Source: Geothrix paludis (lineage in GTDB: Bacteria > Acidobacteriota > Holophagae > Holophagales > Holophagaceae). Taken from it: 64,000 nucleotides of DNA. Below are positions 21,817 through 31,212 of the stretch, in pieces. How positions within the stretch are numbered: position 1 is the stretch's first letter; the number at the start of each line of letters is the position of its first letter. The notes below the pieces were generated by a model, which was not told where the DNA came from, made no database searches, and saw nothing but the letters and a program-made list of their open reading frames with translations. Where the stretch lies: positions 992,001-1,056,000 of the forward strand of contig NZ_JAKZLC010000001.1 in assembly GCF_022808815.1 (NCBI RefSeq). Direction: 5' to 3'. The position numbers were made by a program, and so were the translations under genes.

Positions 21817-22968
21817 ATGCTCCATCTTCCGCCCCTCTACCCGATCACGGACGCCTCGCGTCCCGAGCCGCTGTCCGCCCAGATCCGCCGCCTGGGCGAG
21901 GCGGGGTTCCCGCTGGTGCAGTTCCGGGGCAAGCCCCTGGATGCGAGATCCCAGTGGCTGGAGCTGCGCGCCGCCCTGGCGGACGCGGCGGCGAACGGCG
22001 GCTGGCCCTTCATCTGCGTGAACGACCGGGCGGACCTGGCCCTGCTCGCGGCCCAGGAGGGGCTCGTCCCCTGGGGCCTGCACCTGGGCCAGGGCGACCT
22101 GCCCGCGGCCGAGGCGCTCCGCCTCCCGGGTCTGGGAAGCTGCCATGTCGGCGCCTCGACCCACGGCCCCGCGGAGTGGGAGGCCGTCGACCCGGCCTGT
22201 GACCATGCCGGCGTGGGCCCCTTCCGCGGCACGGCCACGAAATCCGATCACGCCGCACCCATCGGCCTCGAAGGGCTCCGCGCGGGTTGCGCGGCCCTGC
22301 GAGACCAGGACCTCGCGCCCATCGCCATCGGCGGCCTCGGGCCCGCGGACGCCACCGCCTGCTTCGAGGCCGGGGCCGAATCCCTGGCCATGGTGGGCGA
22401 GGTCCACCGCAGCGCCGATCCCGCCGCCCTGGGCTGGGAGGTCCAGCAGGCGCGGTGGCGGGCCCGGCCACCCTTCCGGCGGGGCCAGGGCGTGGTGCTC
22501 CTGGGCGGCAGCGGCGCCGGGAAGAGCACCCTCGGCCAGCTTCTGGCCCGCCAGCTGGACCTGGCCTTCCAGGATCTAGACGAGGTGATCGAGGCGGATC
22601 AGCGCCTTCCGGTGAGCACCATCTTCGCCGAAAGGGGCGAAAGCGCCTTCCGGGCCCTGGAAACCGCCCTGCTGCCCACCCTCATGACCCGGCCCGCCGT
22701 AGTGGCCCTGGGGGGCGGCGCCTGGGAGGCCCCGGCCAACCGGGAGGCCGTCGCCGCCGCCGGCTTCGCCCCGCTCTGGCTGGCGGAGCCGCCGGCCCGG
22801 TTCTGGGAGCGGGTGGGGCGGGATCCCCTGCGCCCCCTGGCCCAGGATCGGAGCGCCTTCATGGCCCGGTGCGCGGCCCGCGCCTCGGCCTGGTCCCTCG
22901 CCCCCGCCCTGCTCTCCTTCGGCCGAAATCCCGAGGATCTTGTCTCCGCCCTGTTGAGGGCTTGTTAG
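21817..22968 (+). CDS. Fusion of thiamine-phosphate synthase-like domain and shikimate kinase
   Basis: 383 residues. Residues 1-205 match ThiE/TenI: QFRGK at 35-39, the VNDRADLAL segment, LHLGQGDLP, VGASTHGP, GVGPFRGTATKSD and IAIGGLGP, so most substrate- and phosphate-binding residues of ThiE are kept. Residues about 222-383 match shikimate kinase: Walker A LGGSGAGKST at 229-238, DLDEVIEA, the FR motif in GESAFRALE, GGG at 299-301 and RPLAQD. ThiE joins the thiamine pyrimidine and thiazole phosphates; shikimate kinase phosphorylates shikimate. The ATG follows the ABC exporter by 38 bases, leaving no room for a TPP riboswitch. I do not know this fusion from elsewhere. Confidence 0.9.
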   Translation: MLHLPPLYPITDASRPEPLSAQIRRLGEAGFPLVQFRGKPLDARSQWLELRAALADAAANGGWPFICVNDRADLALLAAQEGLVPWGLHLGQGDLPAAEALRLPGLGSCHVGASTHGPAEWEAVDPACDHAGVGPFRGTATKSDHAAPIGLEGLRAGCAALRDQDLAPIAIGGLGPADATACFEAGAESLAMVGEVHRSADPAALGWEVQQARWRARPPFRRGQGVVLLGGSGAGKSTLGQLLARQLDLAFQDLDEVIEADQRLPVSTIFAERGESAFRALETALLPTLMTRPAVVALGGGAWEAPANREAVAAAGFAPLWLAEPPARFWERVGRDPLRPLAQDRSAFMARCAARASAWSLAPALLSFGRNPEDLVSALLRAC

Positions 22969-24462: not shown

Positions 24463-25935
24463 TCAGCCCTTGCGGAGGCTGACCACCGTTCCGCCCGCGC
24501 CCAGGGCCAGCATGATCACCGCCTGGACCAGGGTCTTGTAGGAGACGGAGGGGCCGGCCACCGCCGACCAGACGAACGCCACGCCCGCGGCGAGGAGCAG
24601 GATGTAGATCCCCAGCATGATCTTGCGGGCCTTCTCATTGGTCTCCGGCGTGTCCATGGCGAAGAAGCGGTCGTAGAGGACGAGGCCGACGGCGGCCACC
24701 ACGTTGAGCGCCACGAAGAACAGCCAGAAGGCGCGCGCCGCGGCGGGGCCGCCGGGCTGGCCAACCATGGGCTTCAGCATGGCGCCGTAGAGGGCGCCGC
24801 CCAGGCTGGAGCCGATGAGGCTGCCGATGACGCCGTAGAGGAAGGCATAGCCCATGTAGACAGCCTTCTTGTCCGCCGGCGCCACTAGGCCCACATAGCT
24901 GTAGTACTTCGGATGGGCCGTCATCTCGCCGATGGAGAAGACCGAGATGCCCAGGATGAACACCCACACGTTGGTGGAGGCGGCCAGACACAGGAAGCCG
25001 AGGGTGCCGATGACGATGCCCGAGACCATGGTGGGCAGGGGCCGGATCTTCTTCACGATGCGGCTGACGAGCACCTGCAGCAGGATGATGGTGCCGCCGT
25101 TGACCACGGTGACGTGCTCGGCGTCGAACTTGAGGGGCACGCCGAAGGACGCGAAGAAGCGGTTCACGGGCGTGGCGTCCACGAAGTCGCGCAGGTACCA
25201 GAGCACGGATCCGAAGTTCTGGAAGTAGAGGATCCAGAAGCCGGAATACACCACGATCATCAGCATGAAGCGCGCGTCACCCAGCACGAGGGCCGCCCCG
25301 TGGGCCACCTCCTTCAGGCTCTTCGTGTTCTCGGGTTTCGGCGGGTCCTTGAACAGGAAGACCGTGGGCACCAGCATGGCCGCGCAGTAGAGGGCCGAAG
25401 CGATGAACACGTAGCGCCAGGAGAAACCCTTCAGCACGCTCACCACAAGGGGCGCCAGGAAGGCGCCGATGTTGATCATCCAGTAGTAGATGCCGAATCC
25501 GAATCCGGAGTTCTCCTCCGTGGTGGTGCGGGCCAGGGTGCCCGAGATGATGGGCTTGAACAGGCCGGCGCCGGTCGCCATCACGAGCAGCCCCGCGAAG
25601 ACGGCGCCGTACGAGGTGACATTCCCCGCCACGAAATAGCCCGCCGTGAGGATCGAGAAGGCGAAGAGCAGCATGCGCCGGTAGCCGTAGCGATCCGCCA
25701 GGGCCCCGCCGGCGATGGGGATGACGTAGGTGAACGCGTAGATCAGGCTCTGGAGGAAGCCCACGGACTGTTCCGTGAAGCCCAGGCCACCCCTCACGAC
25801 TTCGTTCGTGAGGTAGACCGCGAGCACCGAGTTGAGGCCGTAGTAGGCCGCCCGCTCGAAGAGCTCCATGACGTTCGCCAGCCAGAAAACAGGCGGGAAG
25901 GAGCGGAGGATTCCGGAGGAGCGCTGGGTGGGCAT
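24463..25935 (-). CDS. POT/PTR-family proton-dependent oligopeptide transporter
   Basis: 490 residues of the MFS fold with about 12-14 membrane segments. The N-terminal MELFERAAYYG matches the POT ExxERxxYYG motif needed for proton coupling, and ADRYGYRRMLL is the MFS loop 2-3 motif. It likely imports di- and tripeptides with protons at the inner membrane. It is convergent with the PilZ gene (16 bases between the stops). On its own strand it begins about 30 bases after the end of the aldehyde oxidoreductase operon and may be part of its transcript. Confidence 0.9.
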   Translation of the reverse strand: MPTQRSSGILRSFPPVFWLANVMELFERAAYYGLNSVLAVYLTNEVVRGGLGFTEQSVGFLQSLIYAFTYVIPIAGGALADRYGYRRMLLFAFSILTAGYFVAGNVTSYGAVFAGLLVMATGAGLFKPIISGTLARTTTEENSGFGFGIYYWMINIGAFLAPLVVSVLKGFSWRYVFIASALYCAAMLVPTVFLFKDPPKPENTKSLKEVAHGAALVLGDARFMLMIVVYSGFWILYFQNFGSVLWYLRDFVDATPVNRFFASFGVPLKFDAEHVTVVNGGTIILLQVLVSRIVKKIRPLPTMVSGIVIGTLGFLCLAASTNVWVFILGISVFSIGEMTAHPKYYSYVGLVAPADKKAVYMGYAFLYGVIGSLIGSSLGGALYGAMLKPMVGQPGGPAAARAFWLFFVALNVVAAVGLVLYDRFFAMDTPETNEKARKIMLGIYILLLAAGVAFVWSAVAGPSVSYKTLVQAVIMLALGAGGTVVSLRKG

Positions 25936-25964: not shown

Positions 25965-26249
25965 CTAGCCCCCGCCCCGCATGAAGCCGCGCAGGAGCCG
26001 GGCCAGGAAGGCCTGGGCCGCCTCCGCCGGACAGCCGGCGAGTCGGACTTCCACACGGTGTCGGGGCAGGACGACGCTGCCCAGGCGGAGATCCGCCAGG
26101 GGCACGAGCCGGATGGTCCAGGGCCCGGCCCCGTCGGCGCCTCGGAAGAGCCCTTCCTCCCCTTCGGCGAAGTACCCCACAGCCCCGGGCAGCAGGCGCA
26201 GGAACTCCTCCCGGGAGATGGCCATCTCCAGATCCAGGCGGTGATCCAT
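25965..26249 (-). CDS. Small protein of the aldehyde oxidoreductase operon, function unknown
   Basis: 94 residues, no family recognised. It begins MDHRLDLEMAISREEFLRLLPGAVGYF and ends in a helical segment closed by RGFMRGGG. Its ATG at 26249 overlaps the last base of the MoaD-like stop (TGATG), so translation is coupled. Its place at the end of the aor operon suggests a role in cofactor maturation or enzyme assembly, which is inference only. The Gly-rich end recalls sulfur-carrier tails, but the fold is not evidently ubiquitin-like. Confidence 0.72.
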   Translation of the reverse strand: MDHRLDLEMAISREEFLRLLPGAVGYFAEGEEGLFRGADGAGPWTIRLVPLADLRLGSVVLPRHRVEVRLAGCPAEAAQAFLARLLRGFMRGGG

Positions 26250-26503
26250 CAGCCGCCGGCCACCGGTGGCCAGATGGCCAGAGCCTGTCCTTCGGTCAAG
26301 CGGCGGGAGTCCCACTCCGAGGCGGCCACCCAGGCGCCGTCCACCAGCACGATGGCACACTGGGCGGGCGGAACGCCCTGGCGGCGGATCACCTCGCCCA
26401 CCGTGCAGCCCGGATCCACCTCCAGGTCGATGCGATGCCGCCTTCGCGCCTCCATCGGCAGATGGACGGCGAGGGAGGCGAAGAGCTTGAAGGTGATCTT
26501 CAT
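26249..26503 (-). CDS. MoaD/ThiS-family sulfur carrier of the aor operon
   Basis: 84 residues with the small beta-grasp pattern of MoaD (MKITFKLFASLAVHLP... CTVGEVIRRQGVP... IVLVDG... EGQALAIWPPVAGG). The C-terminal Gly-Gly is the group that is adenylated and turned into a thiocarboxylate to donate sulfur to pyranopterin. Its position next to a tungsten aldehyde oxidoreductase suggests that it makes the tungsten-pterin dithiolene. The start overlaps the FAD-subunit stop by four bases (ATGA). Confidence 0.88.
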   Translation of the reverse strand: MKITFKLFASLAVHLPMEARRRHRIDLEVDPGCTVGEVIRRQGVPPAQCAIVLVDGAWVAASEWDSRRLTEGQALAIWPPVAGG

Positions 26504-27744
26504 GCCACCCGGTGCGCGGCCGCGAGGTAGGCCTGCATGATCCGCGTCGGATCCTCCAGGAGGCGCTGCTTCCAGATGCCCAGGCGGACCCGGCCTTCGA
26601 TGAGCCCGCGGAAGGCGCCCACATGGTCGGCGAACCCCACGCAATTGGCGCCCACCAGCCGGTCCCCGTCGAACTGGAGGTTCAGGTAGCGGTAGTGGAC
26701 CTCGTCGAGCACCTCGGTGGATTCCCCGCCCGGAACCCCCTGCCATTCCCCGAAGGAGGAGGACACCAGGCCGAGGGTGGTCAGCACGTTGAAGACGAAG
26801 CTGCCGCGGAACTGGGCGGGCTTCCCGGCCATGTTCAGCGCGGCGATCCGGCCCTGCTCCACCGCGTTGGGCTGGATGGCGTTGATCCGCCGCTGGCCCG
26901 TGAGGCAGTCGGTCGCCTCGGCCACATCCCCCGCCGCGTAGATGCCGGGGGCGCTGGTCTGCATGGCCGCATCCACCAGGATGCCGTGGCCCACCTCGAT
27001 GCCGCTGCCTTCCAGGAAGCCCAGGGTGGGATCCACGCCCACCACGCTGAGGTAGAGGTCCGCCGGCAGCGTGCGCCCTTCACCCAGAGCCACCTGGAGG
27101 ACGCCCTCCTTGATCGAGAGGCCCTGGGGCTGGGTGTGGGTGAGGACCTTCACACCCTTGGCCTCGCACCACTTGCGGATCAGGCCGCTGGCGGTGGGGT
27201 TCATCATGCGGCGCACCATGTAGCCGCTGCGGACGAGGATGGTGAGGTCCACGCCACGGGAGAGCAGGCCCTCCATGATGATGCAGCCCACGAAGCCCGC
27301 GCCCATCTGGACGATGCGGGTGCCGGGGCGGGCCTCGGCCAGGATGGTGCGGGCGTCCTCGAGGGTCCAGCAGCTGTGCACGCCCGGAAGGTCCATGCCC
27401 GGGATCTTCTCCAGGCTGGGGTGGGAGCCGGTGGCGATGAGCAGCCGGTCGAAGGGGAGCTGGCGGCCGCCGCCCAGGTCGACGGTGCGGCGGGCGGTAT
27501 CGATGCCCTTCGCCCGGGCCTGCACGAGCTGGATCCGCAGGCGGTCGTAGTGGTCGGCGTCCTTCCGGATGCGGGTGCCCGCCTCCTCGATCTCCCCCTT
27601 CAGCAGGTAGGGAATGGCCATGCGGGCGTAGGGCGGCTCCCCCTCGCCGCAGAGCAGGGTGATCTCCGCGGCGGGGTCGGCCTTGCGCAGGGTCTCCGCC
27701 GCGACCACCCCGGCGGGTCCGCTTCCGATGATGAGGTGTTTCAT
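26500..27744 (-). CDS. FAD/NAD(P)-dependent oxidoreductase, likely aldehyde oxidoreductase electron-transfer subunit
   Basis: 414 residues. Two dinucleotide-binding folds are present: FAD motif LIIGSGPAGVVAAETL at the N-terminus and a second Gly-rich motif VQMGAGFVGCIIMEGLL mid-chain. The late FAD motif GIYAAGDVAEA is also seen. It belongs to the class of NADH oxidase/ferredoxin reductase-like flavoproteins. In characterised three-subunit tungsten aldehyde oxidoreductases (AorABC) the FAD subunit passes electrons to NAD. ATG 27744 lies 13 bases after the AOR gene, and the stop overlaps the MoaD-like start. Confidence 0.87.
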   Translation of the reverse strand: MKHLIIGSGPAGVVAAETLRKADPAAEITLLCGEGEPPYARMAIPYLLKGEIEEAGTRIRKDADHYDRLRIQLVQARAKGIDTARRTVDLGGGRQLPFDRLLIATGSHPSLEKIPGMDLPGVHSCWTLEDARTILAEARPGTRIVQMGAGFVGCIIMEGLLSRGVDLTILVRSGYMVRRMMNPTASGLIRKWCEAKGVKVLTHTQPQGLSIKEGVLQVALGEGRTLPADLYLSVVGVDPTLGFLEGSGIEVGHGILVDAAMQTSAPGIYAAGDVAEATDCLTGQRRINAIQPNAVEQGRIAALNMAGKPAQFRGSFVFNVLTTLGLVSSSFGEWQGVPGGESTEVLDEVHYRYLNLQFDGDRLVGANCVGFADHVGAFRGLIEGRVRLGIWKQRLLEDPTRIMQAYLAAAHRVA

Positions 27745-27757
27745 GGGAGACCTTCGT

Positions 27758-29608
27758 TCAGACGCCGAGGCGCTTGCGTGTTTCAGCGGTGGGGACGCCA
27801 TCCTTGGTCCAGCCGCGCACCTGGTAGTACTCGGGCAGCATGACGTCGAGCTTGGACACGGCGCCTTTCTGGGGGCCCGTCTTGGCTGGCTCCTTCATCA
27901 GGCGCGGCGGGAGGTTGTCATCCTTGGCCGTGAAGCCGGCAGCGAGGTTGAACTCGCGCTCCATGTTCCAGATGCGCTCGCCCACCAGCAGCAGCCGCTC
28001 CTCGGACCAGTCGCCTTCGCAGGCGGCCTGGATCTGCGGCTGGATGTCCGACAGGCCCCAGGCGAAGGTGGTGAAGAGGCAGATGCCGGCGGAATCCACC
28101 ACGGCGGTGAGGTCCTGGAAGGCCTTCAGCATGGCGGGTTTCCCTTCGGTGGCCTGGGGTTCCATCTTCACGGGGATGCCCAAGACCTCGGGGGACACCA
28201 TGTAGCCGCGCAGGTGGCAGGCCCCGCGGTTGTTGGTGGCGTAGGCCAGGCCCATGCCCTGCAGGGCGCGCCCGTCGTAGGCCGGGAACTCCTGGCTCTT
28301 GACGGTCATGGACAGCTCGGGATGGCCGTACTTCGTGCAGAGCCGCTTGGAGCCCAGGCCCATGATCTTGCCGAAGCCCTCTCCCTTGGCAGTCATCTCG
28401 GCGAGCTTGACCAGGGCTTCCGTGGAACCGAAGGGCATCTTGAGGCCGGTCTCCTTCTCCGTGAGGACGCCCATCTCGTAGAGTTCCATGGCCGCGCCCA
28501 CGGTGGCCCCGAAGGTGATGGGATCGAAGCCGTCCTCGTTGCAGAGGAAGTTGGCGTAGGTCAGGGCCTCCAGGTCGTTCACACCATTGGCGGCGCCCAG
28601 GGCCCAGGCGGCTTCGTACTCCACGCCGCCGGAAGCGCCGTGGTACTGGGGCTTGTCCTTGATGCTGAAGTGGCCGGGATCCATGCGGGAGATGCGCCCG
28701 CAGGCGATGGTGCAGCCGAAGCAGGCGCCGTTAGTGACGAGGTTGGCCTTGCCGTCCGTGGGCCGCTTCTCGTGCATGGCCTCGCCGGAGATGTCGTGGG
28801 CGCCCTCGAACTGCACCTCGCGATGGTTGCGCGTGGGCAGCGCCCCCAGCTCGTTGATGACGTTCATCAGCACCTGGGTGCCGTAGGTGGGGAGTCCCTG
28901 CCCCGTCACGCCGTTGGCCGCCAGCACCTTCTTGCCGGCCTCGGTGGCGGCGAAGAAGGCCTCCGGGTTGGCCATCTGGTAGGCGTCGGTGCGCGTGCCG
29001 CGCACGGCGACGGCCTTGAGGTTCTTGGAGCCCATGACGGCGCCGACACCGGAGCGGCCCGCGGCACGGTGCAGGTCGTTCACGATGGCCGCGTAGAGCA
29101 CGCGGTTCTCACCGGCCCGGCCGATGGCGGCCACGCGGATCTGGGGATCCTGGTGCTGGGTCTTGATGGTCTCCTCGGTCTCCCAGACGGTCTTGCCCCA
29201 GAGGTGGGAGGCGTCCACCAGCTCGGCCTTGCCGTCGTTGATGAGGAGGTAGACGGGCTTCGGGGCAGCCCCTTCGAAGATTACCATGTCCCAGCCCGCG
29301 AACTTCAGCTCGGCGCCGAAGTAGCCGCCGGAGTTCGAGCAGGCGATGGCGCCCGTGAGCGGGCCCTTGGTCACCACGGAATAGCGTCCACCCGTGGCGG
29401 CCATGGTGCCCGTGAGCGGGCCCGTCACGAAGATGAGCTTGTTCTTGGGCGAGAAGGGATCAACCTTCGGGTCGATCTCGGACACGAGGTACTTGGTGGC
29501 GAGGCCCCGCTGGCCCAGGTAGTCCTGCGCCCACTGCATGTTCAGCGGCTCCGTGGTGCAGGTGCCGGCCTCGAGGTTCACGCGGAGAACGTTCTTGGTC
29601 CATGCCAT
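27758..29608 (-). CDS. Tungsten-containing aldehyde ferredoxin oxidoreductase
   Basis: 616 residues, the usual AOR length. The tungsten-pterin binding segment is RSGVGAVMGSKNLKAVAV. The [4Fe-4S] ligands are CFGCTIACG and the late Cys in FLCNEDGFDP. It oxidises aldehydes to acids (or the reverse) at low potential in the cytoplasm. The gene follows the four-cluster Fe-S subunit and precedes the FAD subunit, matching the AorABC arrangement of bacterial three-subunit AORs. A benzoyl-type or acetaldehyde substrate cannot be told apart from sequence. Confidence 0.95.
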   Translation of the reverse strand: MAWTKNVLRVNLEAGTCTTEPLNMQWAQDYLGQRGLATKYLVSEIDPKVDPFSPKNKLIFVTGPLTGTMAATGGRYSVVTKGPLTGAIACSNSGGYFGAELKFAGWDMVIFEGAAPKPVYLLINDGKAELVDASHLWGKTVWETEETIKTQHQDPQIRVAAIGRAGENRVLYAAIVNDLHRAAGRSGVGAVMGSKNLKAVAVRGTRTDAYQMANPEAFFAATEAGKKVLAANGVTGQGLPTYGTQVLMNVINELGALPTRNHREVQFEGAHDISGEAMHEKRPTDGKANLVTNGACFGCTIACGRISRMDPGHFSIKDKPQYHGASGGVEYEAAWALGAANGVNDLEALTYANFLCNEDGFDPITFGATVGAAMELYEMGVLTEKETGLKMPFGSTEALVKLAEMTAKGEGFGKIMGLGSKRLCTKYGHPELSMTVKSQEFPAYDGRALQGMGLAYATNNRGACHLRGYMVSPEVLGIPVKMEPQATEGKPAMLKAFQDLTAVVDSAGICLFTTFAWGLSDIQPQIQAACEGDWSEERLLLVGERIWNMEREFNLAAGFTAKDDNLPPRLMKEPAKTGPQKGAVSKLDVMLPEYYQVRGWTKDGVPTAETRKRLGV

Positions 29609-29620
29609 GGCAGTCGCTCC

Positions 29621-30097
29621 TCACACCGTCGCCGGGTTGGTGTCGGTCTTGCCGGCCCACTGGCGCATCTTCCCGAGCCCTGTCCAGTCGGCATCCACGT
29701 AGGTGATGGCTCCGGTCGGACAGGCCTTGGCGCAGGCCGGCTCGCCGTCGCAGAGGTCGCACTTCTGCACCTTGCCGGTGGAGGCCACGTAGTTGATGGT
29801 GCCGAAGGGGCAGGCGATCGTGCAGACCTTGCAGCCCACGCAGGTGGGCTCCAGCACGATCTTCGCGCCGGTGACGGGATCCAACCGGATGGCGTCCACC
29901 GGGCAGGCCGTCATGCACCAGGCCTCATCGCACTGCGTGCAGGTGTAGGGCACGAAGCGCCCTTCCTTGTGGAAGGTGAACACCTTGATCCGCGACTTCG
30001 CGATGGTGAAGCTGCGGTGGTTCTCCCAGGCGCAGGCCATCTCGCACTGGAGACAGGCCGTGCACTTGTTGGGGTCGATGTGGAGGGACTTCTGCAT
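29621..30097 (-). CDS. Four-cluster ferredoxin-like Fe-S subunit of the aldehyde oxidoreductase
   Basis: 158 residues with 16 cysteines in four [4Fe-4S] motifs: CTACLQCEMAC, CTQCDEAWCMTAC, CVGCKVCTIAC and CDLCDGEPACAKAC. This is the layout of the electron-transfer subunits of molybdenum and tungsten enzymes. It is the first gene of the aor operon and should shuttle electrons between the tungsten subunit and the flavoprotein. ATG 30097 has AGGAGG upstream. A possible promoter lies at about 30144-30149. Confidence 0.93.
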   Translation of the reverse strand: MQKSLHIDPNKCTACLQCEMACAWENHRSFTIAKSRIKVFTFHKEGRFVPYTCTQCDEAWCMTACPVDAIRLDPVTGAKIVLEPTCVGCKVCTIACPFGTINYVASTGKVQKCDLCDGEPACAKACPTGAITYVDADWTGLGKMRQWAGKTDTNPATV

Positions 30098-30228: not shown

Positions 30229-31212
30229 TCAGCCCAAAGGCTCGTATTTCACCTGGAATTTCGGCGGACGGTTCACGTAGAGGATGTAACCCGCGCCGAT
30301 CAGGGCAAATAGGAGGCTCACGTAACCTGATCCCTCCTGGAAATCCGCCTCGAAGAAATGCTGCGCCGCCACGAGGGCGAGACGGAGGCTCAGTCCACCT
30401 TCCACCTCCCTCGCGGCCGAGAACAGGATGAACAGGTAGTCGCCCGCCAGGACCGTGGCCACGGTCAGCAGCACCGTCAGGGCCCGGCCGACGTGGTTCA
30501 CCTTCTCCATGCCCCGGTTGATGGCCCACGCCAGGGCCACGCCGATGCCGATGGCTCCCCACAGGAAGATGCGGTGGATCAGGTACGCGAGGCCGCCCCA
30601 CAGGACCGCCAGCACCGCTCCGGTGACAGCGCCGTAGAGGAGCCCGGCCATGGGATTGGACACGAGACCGTCGTAGGCCTCCTTGGCCCGTCGCGCCTGC
30701 TCATCCTGCGAGGCACGGCAGGGCGTGCAGATCCGCACCGGGACGCCATCCGCCGTCCAGAGTCCCTCGCGAGTCTCCCGTCCACAGCCTTCGCACTGCT
30801 CCGCCACGGGTTTCGCAGCCTTCGCCGCGAACCCCACCAGGACCTTCAGCACGGCAGCGACGGCCTCGGGCTTGGGGGCGAACAGCGAAAAAGGCCAGTG
30901 GCAGACGATGCCATCTTCCATCAGCGTCAGCGACTTCAGGAGGGCCTTGGGCACGGCCTTCTTGCCCGTGGCTTGCCGGAGATCCTCGGAACCCGCGGCG
31001 AAGGCGGCGAGCCCGTCGGGCCCCGCCGACCAGGAGCCCTTGGCGAACCGCACCAGGAACGAAACCTGTGAATGGTTCTGGTTCCTGCTCCAGGCGGCCG
31101 CCACGGGATATCCCTGCATGGACCCCACCGCGGCGGCGTTCTGCCAGGGGCCCTTGGCGACGGCTTTCAGGCCGGTGAGTTCCGCCAGGCGTACGAGACG
31201 TTTCTGGGTCAT
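30229..31212 (-). CDS. Zinc-ribbon membrane protein, function unknown
   Basis: 327 residues. The N-terminal ~140 residues are soluble and unlike any family I know. Two CxxC pairs (CEGCGRET and CTPCRAS, about residues 140-166) make a zinc ribbon. About four membrane segments follow (GLLYGAVTGAVLAVLWGGLA, the next LWGAIGIGVALAWAI, then two more), giving a short cytoplasmic C-terminal end (PPKFQVKYEPLG). It is divergent from arnD. The zinc ribbon may be regulatory or structural. No function is offered. Confidence 0.72.
   Translation of the reverse strand: MTQKRLVRLAELTGLKAVAKGPWQNAAAVGSMQGYPVAAAWSRNQNHSQVSFLVRFAKGSWSAGPDGLAAFAAGSEDLRQATGKKAVPKALLKSLTLMEDGIVCHWPFSLFAPKPEAVAAVLKVLVGFAAKAAKPVAEQCEGCGRETREGLWTADGVPVRICTPCRASQDEQARRAKEAYDGLVSNPMAGLLYGAVTGAVLAVLWGGLAYLIHRIFLWGAIGIGVALAWAINRGMEKVNHVGRALTVLLTVATVLAGDYLFILFSAAREVEGGLSLRLALVAAQHFFEADFQEGSGYVSLLFALIGAGYILYVNRPPKFQVKYEPLG

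Follow-up and report, generated by a model that had tools for sequence, protein, structure and literature searches.

Known AOR operons and their accessory genes

Among the aldehyde oxidoreductases (AORs), those of the aorABC type are designated class III (PMC13328260). The best point of comparison for the locus described here is the aorABCDE operon of A. aromaticum, whose last two products, AorD and AorE, are said to resemble MoaD and are regarded as putative maturation factors; both are absent from the purified enzyme (PMC6365974). For recombinant aorABC, an activity of 4.5 U/mg and a content of 1.06 W are given; for aorABCDE the values are 16 U/mg and 0.39 W, for aorABCDE with added tungstate 85 U/mg and 1.52 W, and for the native enzyme 23.6 U/mg and 1.46 W (PMC9295118, Table 1). 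Our own division of these figures yields activities per W of 4.2, 41, 56 and 16, respectively. Activity per W rises with aorDE, and the quality of the cofactor therefore seems to be improved, rather than only the amount of W, which is what a step acting on sulfur or the pterin would do; this effect is that of D and E jointly, the unsupplemented aorABCDE preparation held less W, and no replicate errors were seen. The name aorE also appears in a plasmid description (PMC10413684).

Small sulfur-carrier-like proteins have been linked to such enzymes more widely. WorX is a ThiS-like protein encoded beside tungsten oxidoreductases (PMC13328260), and for AOR-linked MoaD proteins a role in making the pterin has been predicted (Iyer et al., 2006; PMC1779556). 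A second Gly-tailed protein is mentioned in neither the WorX nor the Iyer et al. passages available to us. In T. kodakarensis, the two end glycines of the MoaD-family protein UblB are required for a tungsten enzyme (PMC11323500). Deinococcus radiodurans provides a case of MoaD fused to its working partner, MoaE, in which JAMM cleavage frees the C-terminal Gly (PMC8832034). Our literature search found in the texts it reached no description of a second, non-ubiquitin, Gly-tailed AOR protein, and no paper using the term DUF1952.

An aorABC-type operon in Geothrix paludis

We analysed a window of 64,000 nucleotides from the Geothrix paludis assembly (3.4 Mb in 9 contigs); all positions below are those of the window. 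ORFs and Pfam matches lay out a five-gene run on the minus strand from 30097 to 25965: polyferredoxin, AOR, FAD/NAD oxidoreductase, MoaD-like protein and small protein. A first-pass annotation had reported here an AOR operon with its own MoaD ending in GG, overlapped by a small protein ending in GGG, and both of these ORFs are indeed present (26503-25965, minus strand).

The first gene of the operon, aorA-like (29621..30097, minus), follows an AGGAGG ribosome site in the upstream sequence and encodes a polyferredoxin subunit of 158 aa with Pfam Fer4 families; its best PDB match, at E 5.7e-77, is 8c0z_C, the iron-sulfur subunit of the AOR of A. aromaticum. The aorB-like gene (27758..29608, minus) encodes the AOR large subunit, 616 aa, with AFOR_N and AFOR_C both above the Pfam cut-off and with 8c0z_A as best PDB match (1050.9 bits across residues 1-616). 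The aorC-like gene (26500..27744, minus), whose start at MKHLIIG was picked by position, encodes a FAD/NAD(P) oxidoreductase subunit of 414 aa (Pfam Pyr_redox_2), and 8c0z_E is its sole PDB match at E <= 1e-40 (E 8.9e-141). A single operon accordingly holds an AorB with both AFOR domains, a polyferredoxin AorA and a FAD subunit AorC, and because the best PDB match of each enzyme subunit is A. aromaticum 8c0z, the sequences identify it as an aorABC-type (class III) AOR of the tungsten family; a tungsten bis-pterin cofactor and NAD-linked oxidation of aldehydes are predicted.

The likeness to A. aromaticum aorABCDE extends to what follows the three enzyme genes, namely two small putative maturation genes of which the first is MoaD-like. 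The second holds the aorE position as last gene of the operon, after the MoaD-like gene, with the D/E order in A. aromaticum taken from its lettering. A. aromaticum AorE is described as resembling MoaD, whereas the second Geothrix protein is unlike MoaD, a comparison made with the published description of AorE (WP_041646407).

The moaD-like gene in the aorD position (26249..26503, minus) encodes 84 aa ending in WPPVAGG, the Gly-Gly codons lying at 26252-26257. Pfam ThiS at 28.6 bits (cut-off 22.5) and Ub-Mut7C at 28 bits (cut-off 23), together with the C-terminal Gly-Gly, place the product in the MoaD/ThiS family of beta-grasp sulfur carriers, alike to both WorX and the AOR-linked MoaD. The GG end is kept in eight of eight aligned sequences and in each of the 29 distinct Geothrix loci where moaD is complete. 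Each of the three AOR genes of the host genome has a ThiS/MoaD-family neighbor, and the genome holds in all one MoaE match, three ThiF-family places and six ThiS-family places, one of the six sitting in a long frame unlike a ThiS gene. Given this number of ThiF- and ThiS-family places, a shared enzyme might load the tails of both small proteins.

Successive genes at the end of the operon overlap, aorC-like and moaD by ATGA, moaD and the small gene by TGATG (26247..26251, minus), in which the moaD stop shares one base with the small-gene start; from the latter overlap we infer that moaD and the small gene may be translationally coupled. The spacing between these two genes ranges from -8 to +6 bases across 18 genomes. 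Rfam at gathering scores had no match in the whole window.

Several neighbors may be recorded. An MFS/POT transporter gene (24463-25935), on the same minus strand, begins 29 nt past the small gene; TATAAT directly precedes its start and hints at a separate promoter. Upstream of aorA, positions 30229-31212 (minus) encode a 327-aa protein without Pfam match at E <= 1e-5. At 21817-22968 (plus), a single 383-aa ORF combines thiamine monophosphate synthase (residues 7-195) and shikimate kinase (233-347), an unusual-looking fusion.

A selected gene with a conserved RGGG end

The small gene (25965..26249, minus) encodes 94 aa ending in FMRGGG, followed by TAG; the codons of the conserved C-terminal RGGG are at 25968..25979 (minus). 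Our family-wide profile search matched 36 genomes, of which one (G005) has the gene interrupted by a contig end, leaving 35 homologues with a complete C-terminus (32 of one translated set and three of another genus). All 35 end in GGG and a stop codon. Within the set of 32, all four Gly codons are seen at each of the three tail positions and the stop codon varies (27 TAG, 5 TGA), hence it is the protein end itself that is conserved. The residue before GGG is R, replaced by K in one of the 32; the third G and this preceding residue are also kept, which extends the motif from GG to RGGG.

Homologues share as little as 34% identity with the copy in the window, and dN/dS is 0.11-0.46 in 15 pairs (Nei-Gojobori). 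The most conserved features are the tail, one Trp and, in the last helix, Phe and Arg positions. Judged by these sequence comparisons, the second protein is the product of a selected gene and not a chance ORF. Gly tails occur in 2 of 39 window ORFs from a crude ORF picker; a second picker omitted both genes, and this count was not used as evidence.

Predicted fold and the Thermus fusion protein

The first-pass annotation had assigned the second protein to no known family. At Pfam and NCBIfam thresholds this stands, with nothing above threshold in either; at the level of fold it does not, as the protein resembles one half of a solved structure (below). An RskA_N match (E 0.052) was under the cut-off, covered 22 residues, and was dismissed as chance. 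ThiS/MoaD or other beta-grasp domains were absent from Pfam/NCBIfam matches at E <= 1, and from those of 30 family members at E <= 10. The AlphaFold2 model, built with 30 sequences, has a mean pLDDT of 86.3 and a pTM of 0.74, the last four residues averaging 54, and gives the order strand, helix, three strands, long C-terminal helix, tail. With no beta-grasp match and a different predicted fold, the idea of a second MoaD was ruled out; as modelled, the small protein is not a ubiquitin fold.

The top Foldseek match among 350,542 PDB chains is 1v8c, the MoaD related protein of Thermus thermophilus HB8 (E 2.1e-3, prob 1.00); no chain reaches E 0.001. The tail probably plays no part in this rank, because 165 of the 168 residues of 1v8c have coordinates and the aligned stretch stops at residue 165. 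VIA aligns 79 residues with 1v8c residues 85-165 (Z 9.3, rmsd 2.0, 22% identity), that is, with its C-terminal domain, which we take to be Pfam PF09189 (DUF1952). Four kinase-associated or AMPK domain chains outscore 1v8c in VIA (Z 9.4-11.1, 7-10% identity), and the fold is therefore not specific by itself. The model thus appears to share the fold of the 1v8c C-terminal domain, which does not by itself prove kinship.

Sequence comparison leads to the same protein, at scores that taken singly are not significant. With the small-protein profile, 1v8c ranks first among 177,635 sequences (E 0.17; 0.29 with alignment A2), and the alignment pairs RGGG with RGGG. For a tail-less control profile, from which the last four residues were removed, 1v8c comes second with E 1.4. 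The tail supplies much of the sequence score, and therefore the fold, the module order and both tails must be weighed together. Module order is the same in 1v8c as in the operon, with a second module of similar fold; 1v8c carries GGG at the MoaD-module junction and RGGG at its very end, while in Geothrix these tails are on two separate proteins. It is one chain where Geothrix has two genes, and the sequence likeness is weak. A joined moaD-plus-small profile aligns collinearly to 1v8c, from the junction (Thermus FPPVAGGG, Geothrix MoaD end WPPVAGG) through the final RGGG, with a whole-sequence E of 0.016 at rank 5 and a single-stretch E of 0.31; with the moaD profile by itself, 1v8c is missing from the matches at E <= 10. 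Taken together, the model and the alignments suggest that the small protein is a separate half of what in Thermus is a fused protein. The comparison differs from the MoaD-MoaE fusion of D. radiodurans in the partner, MoaE there and a Gly-tailed, DUF1952-like domain in Geothrix and Thermus.

By Pfam's own cut-off the small protein is DUF1952-like and not a DUF1952 member: one of 30 family members matches PF09189, at E 0.042, short of the gathering cut-off, and the host genome has no match at E <= 10. In other Acidobacteriota 16 of 396 genomes match, two of them above the cut-off; these two matches lie antisense to a long ORF reading (by eye) like aspartate carbamoyltransferase and were set aside as chance. 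Among 14 control genomes only Thermus composti matched; at E <= 10 there were six, one above the cut-off.

Iyer et al. place Tth among the AOR-linked MoaD (PMC1779556). At the one Thermus locus inspected, the plasmid AOR locus of HB27, no MoaD fusion lies beside the AOR, and no AOR link was seen. An ORF in the gap upstream of this AOR was considered for the fusion and reads, by eye, like a transposase. The 1v8c fragment had no credible match among plasmids.

Distribution and gene neighborhoods

Whole-genome searches covered the phylum of the window. The small protein was found by profile search in 36 of the 77 genomes of the family, and in a phylum sample 16 of 297 genomes matched, all within this same family. 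Stop-containing matches (G082 and G014:C253) were not counted; G022, with two matches of which one is partial, was counted once, as were L004, L005 and L006, which duplicate L008, L009 and L013. One of the 16 matches of the phylum sample, in G001 (profile A1, E 4.6e-4), was left out as weak and lying within a 1493-aa frame. Named relatives that have the protein are Geothrix sp. SG200, G. terrae and a Geothrix MAG. The host genome has it in a single place, at this operon.

Presence of the small gene follows that of aorB. Twenty-seven of the 28 Geothrix genomes with aorB have it, as do 2 of the 16 without detected aorB (Fisher p 1.5e-8 with kinship ignored, for the 44 Geothrix genomes in which both statuses are known, a set without G038, G039 and G046). 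In the latter two genomes (G010 and G035), contig extent and gene positions indicate that the contigs end before aorB or just inside it. Among 30 distinct Geothrix loci, 29 have the moaD-like gene adjoining the small gene, and the exception, G022, carries moaD on a different contig. By tblastn the order aorA-B-C-moaD-small holds in five of eight neighborhoods, and the ORF of L062 adds a sixth; the remaining two are that of G009, where the gene is lost, and a distant AOR without moaD match. The tblastn used one query sequence and missed the L062 homologue; the profile recovers every one of the nine known copies in the loci searched. Outside Geothrix, G048 and G050 have the same order, and G438 has it from aorB onward, its stretch starting inside aorB. 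In G436 and G439 the small gene is 1.4 and 2.9 kb from moaD, respectively, beside a second AOR-like gene, which we counted against the reading as a maturation pair.

G009 provides a natural comparison strain. Its aorABC and moaD are intact-looking, and its small gene (L060, G009:C66, about 2290-2200, minus) stops after 17 residues through an internal deletion, as judged against relatives. Either the small gene or the enzyme is thus not needed in G009, or the assembly contains an error.

Conservation beside AOR genes, a point raised by the first-pass annotation, was borne out within Geothrix; genus g3 has the small gene in one of its two genomes, and genus g5 in four of its six. It did not extend to more distant Acidobacteriota or to plasmids. 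None of 18 more distant Acidobacteriota AOR loci has the small gene, by tblastn and profile, and a GG-tailed MoaD-like gene lies near 11 of these 18 (by eye). More distant AOR operons with MoaD manage without the small protein, and this too was counted against the maturation pair. The profile found no small gene in L070-L087 or L037-L045, with one chance-level score (L083, E 0.033). All eight plasmid AOR loci inspected have an annotated MoaD/ThiS-family gene, and none has the small gene. The small protein had no match among plasmids at E <= 1 and no credible one among phages and viral contigs (a phage match had E 0.9); AorB was not found in viral contigs, and the P0001 query had no credible match in plasmids.

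Other arrangements were seen among these loci. Inserted frames of 331 aa in L121 (G439) and 418 aa in L122 (G436), alike at their starts, separate moaD from the small gene, which in both genomes is convergent with the second, longer AOR-like gene. In the Acidobacteriota loci L070, L071, L074 and L075 (by eye), and in the Azospirillum plasmid loci L037-L041 (as annotated), AorA-AorB is followed by hydrogenase-4/complex-I-like membrane genes, with a MoaD gene between the two groups in Azospirillum and L070; such a cluster possibly encodes a membrane-bound, aldehyde-oxidising, ion-pumping complex. L073 (G259:C28, 2793-5022) has enzyme, E1 and carrier in a row: an aorC-like gene, an ORF that reads like an adenylating enzyme of the ThiF type, and a MoaD with the tail PPVAGG.

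A putative maturation pair and its alternatives

We favor, with moderate confidence, the reading of this locus as an aorABCDE-type operon, in which a three-subunit AOR of the tungsten family is encoded with two dedicated cofactor-maturation proteins, the small protein partnering the AOR-specific MoaD. We infer the partnership from the aorDE literature, the AOR-linked MoaD, UblB and the MoaD-MoaE fusion. The first-pass annotation had also proposed a dedicated tungsten-pterin maturation set; gene position and the published effect of aorDE (from 4.5 to 16 U/mg, and to 85 U/mg with extra tungstate; PMC9295118) speak for it. Both the operon type and the maturation idea are already known, the latter not being new because addition of aorDE has already been published to raise AOR activity.

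The proposed pathway would have three steps. A ThiF/MoeB-type enzyme of the genome would adenylate the Gly-Gly end of the MoaD-like protein, whose thiocarboxylate would then supply sulfur for the pterin dithiolene of the AOR cofactor, as expected from what is known of the family. The DUF1952-like small protein would bind the MoaD-like protein as its partner, as the Thermus fusion hints. The RGGG tail, absolutely conserved and modelled with low confidence at its end, may for these reasons insert into a groove or active site in the machinery that transfers sulfur or loads the cofactor.

An assembly chaperone for AorABC, or a factor that stabilises the MoaD-like protein, is the alternative that we take most seriously, while considering it unlikely; here the Gly tail would act purely as a docking peptide, and neither sulfur nor cofactor chemistry would be involved. 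The small protein has no conspicuous catalytic residues, and the lack of AorD and AorE in the purified A. aromaticum enzyme (PMC6365974) would fit such a role, but the Thermus fusion joins the domain to MoaD, not to an AOR subunit, and the change in activity per W with aorDE (our division of PMC9295118 values) suggests an effect on the cofactor.

It is improbable, in our judgment, that the likeness to 1v8c reflects no more than a common alpha/beta architecture and that the small protein belongs to a new family without kinship to it and with a chance Gly end, perhaps binding a hydrophobic ligand or an aldehyde. KA1, AMPK, abscisic-acid receptor and AHSA1-like domains do fill the VIA list, some with higher Z; the tail-less profile reaches 1v8c at E 1.4; and DUF1952 matches a lone member of 30 (E 0.042) and nothing in the host genome at E <= 10. 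Against these points, 1v8c tops the Foldseek search of 350,542 chains, is the only MoaD protein by title among the best 50 VIA rows, and has an end that matches RGGG residue for residue. That the pair is a small ubiquitin-like conjugation system, tagging proteins and not making cofactor, is highly improbable: in the archaeon T. kodakarensis, ubiquitin-like proteins from these families serve both purposes (PMC11323500), but the link to the aor operon is close, the window neighbors inspected (ORFs and Pfam) include no adjoining ThiF-type or peptidase gene, and the excerpts on AorDE give no hint of it.

The reading as a maturation pair has a bolder form, which we regard as a long shot: the small protein would itself be a sulfur carrier without a ubiquitin fold, its RGGG adenylated and thiocarboxylated, docked with MoaD so that the two carriers deliver both dithiolene sulfurs, and the Thermus pair would be the same thing in one chain. 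To our knowledge, sulfur carriers of the MoaD kind are all ubiquitin folds, a rule that would be broken if the RGGG tail carries sulfur. The maturation pair bears on how a tungsten, as against a molybdenum, cofactor is made and loaded into AORs, enzymes that are useful in that they reduce acids to aldehydes. A partner candidate with a conserved Gly tail and with a solved structure of a natural fusion makes of the vague "maturation factor" a testable pair.
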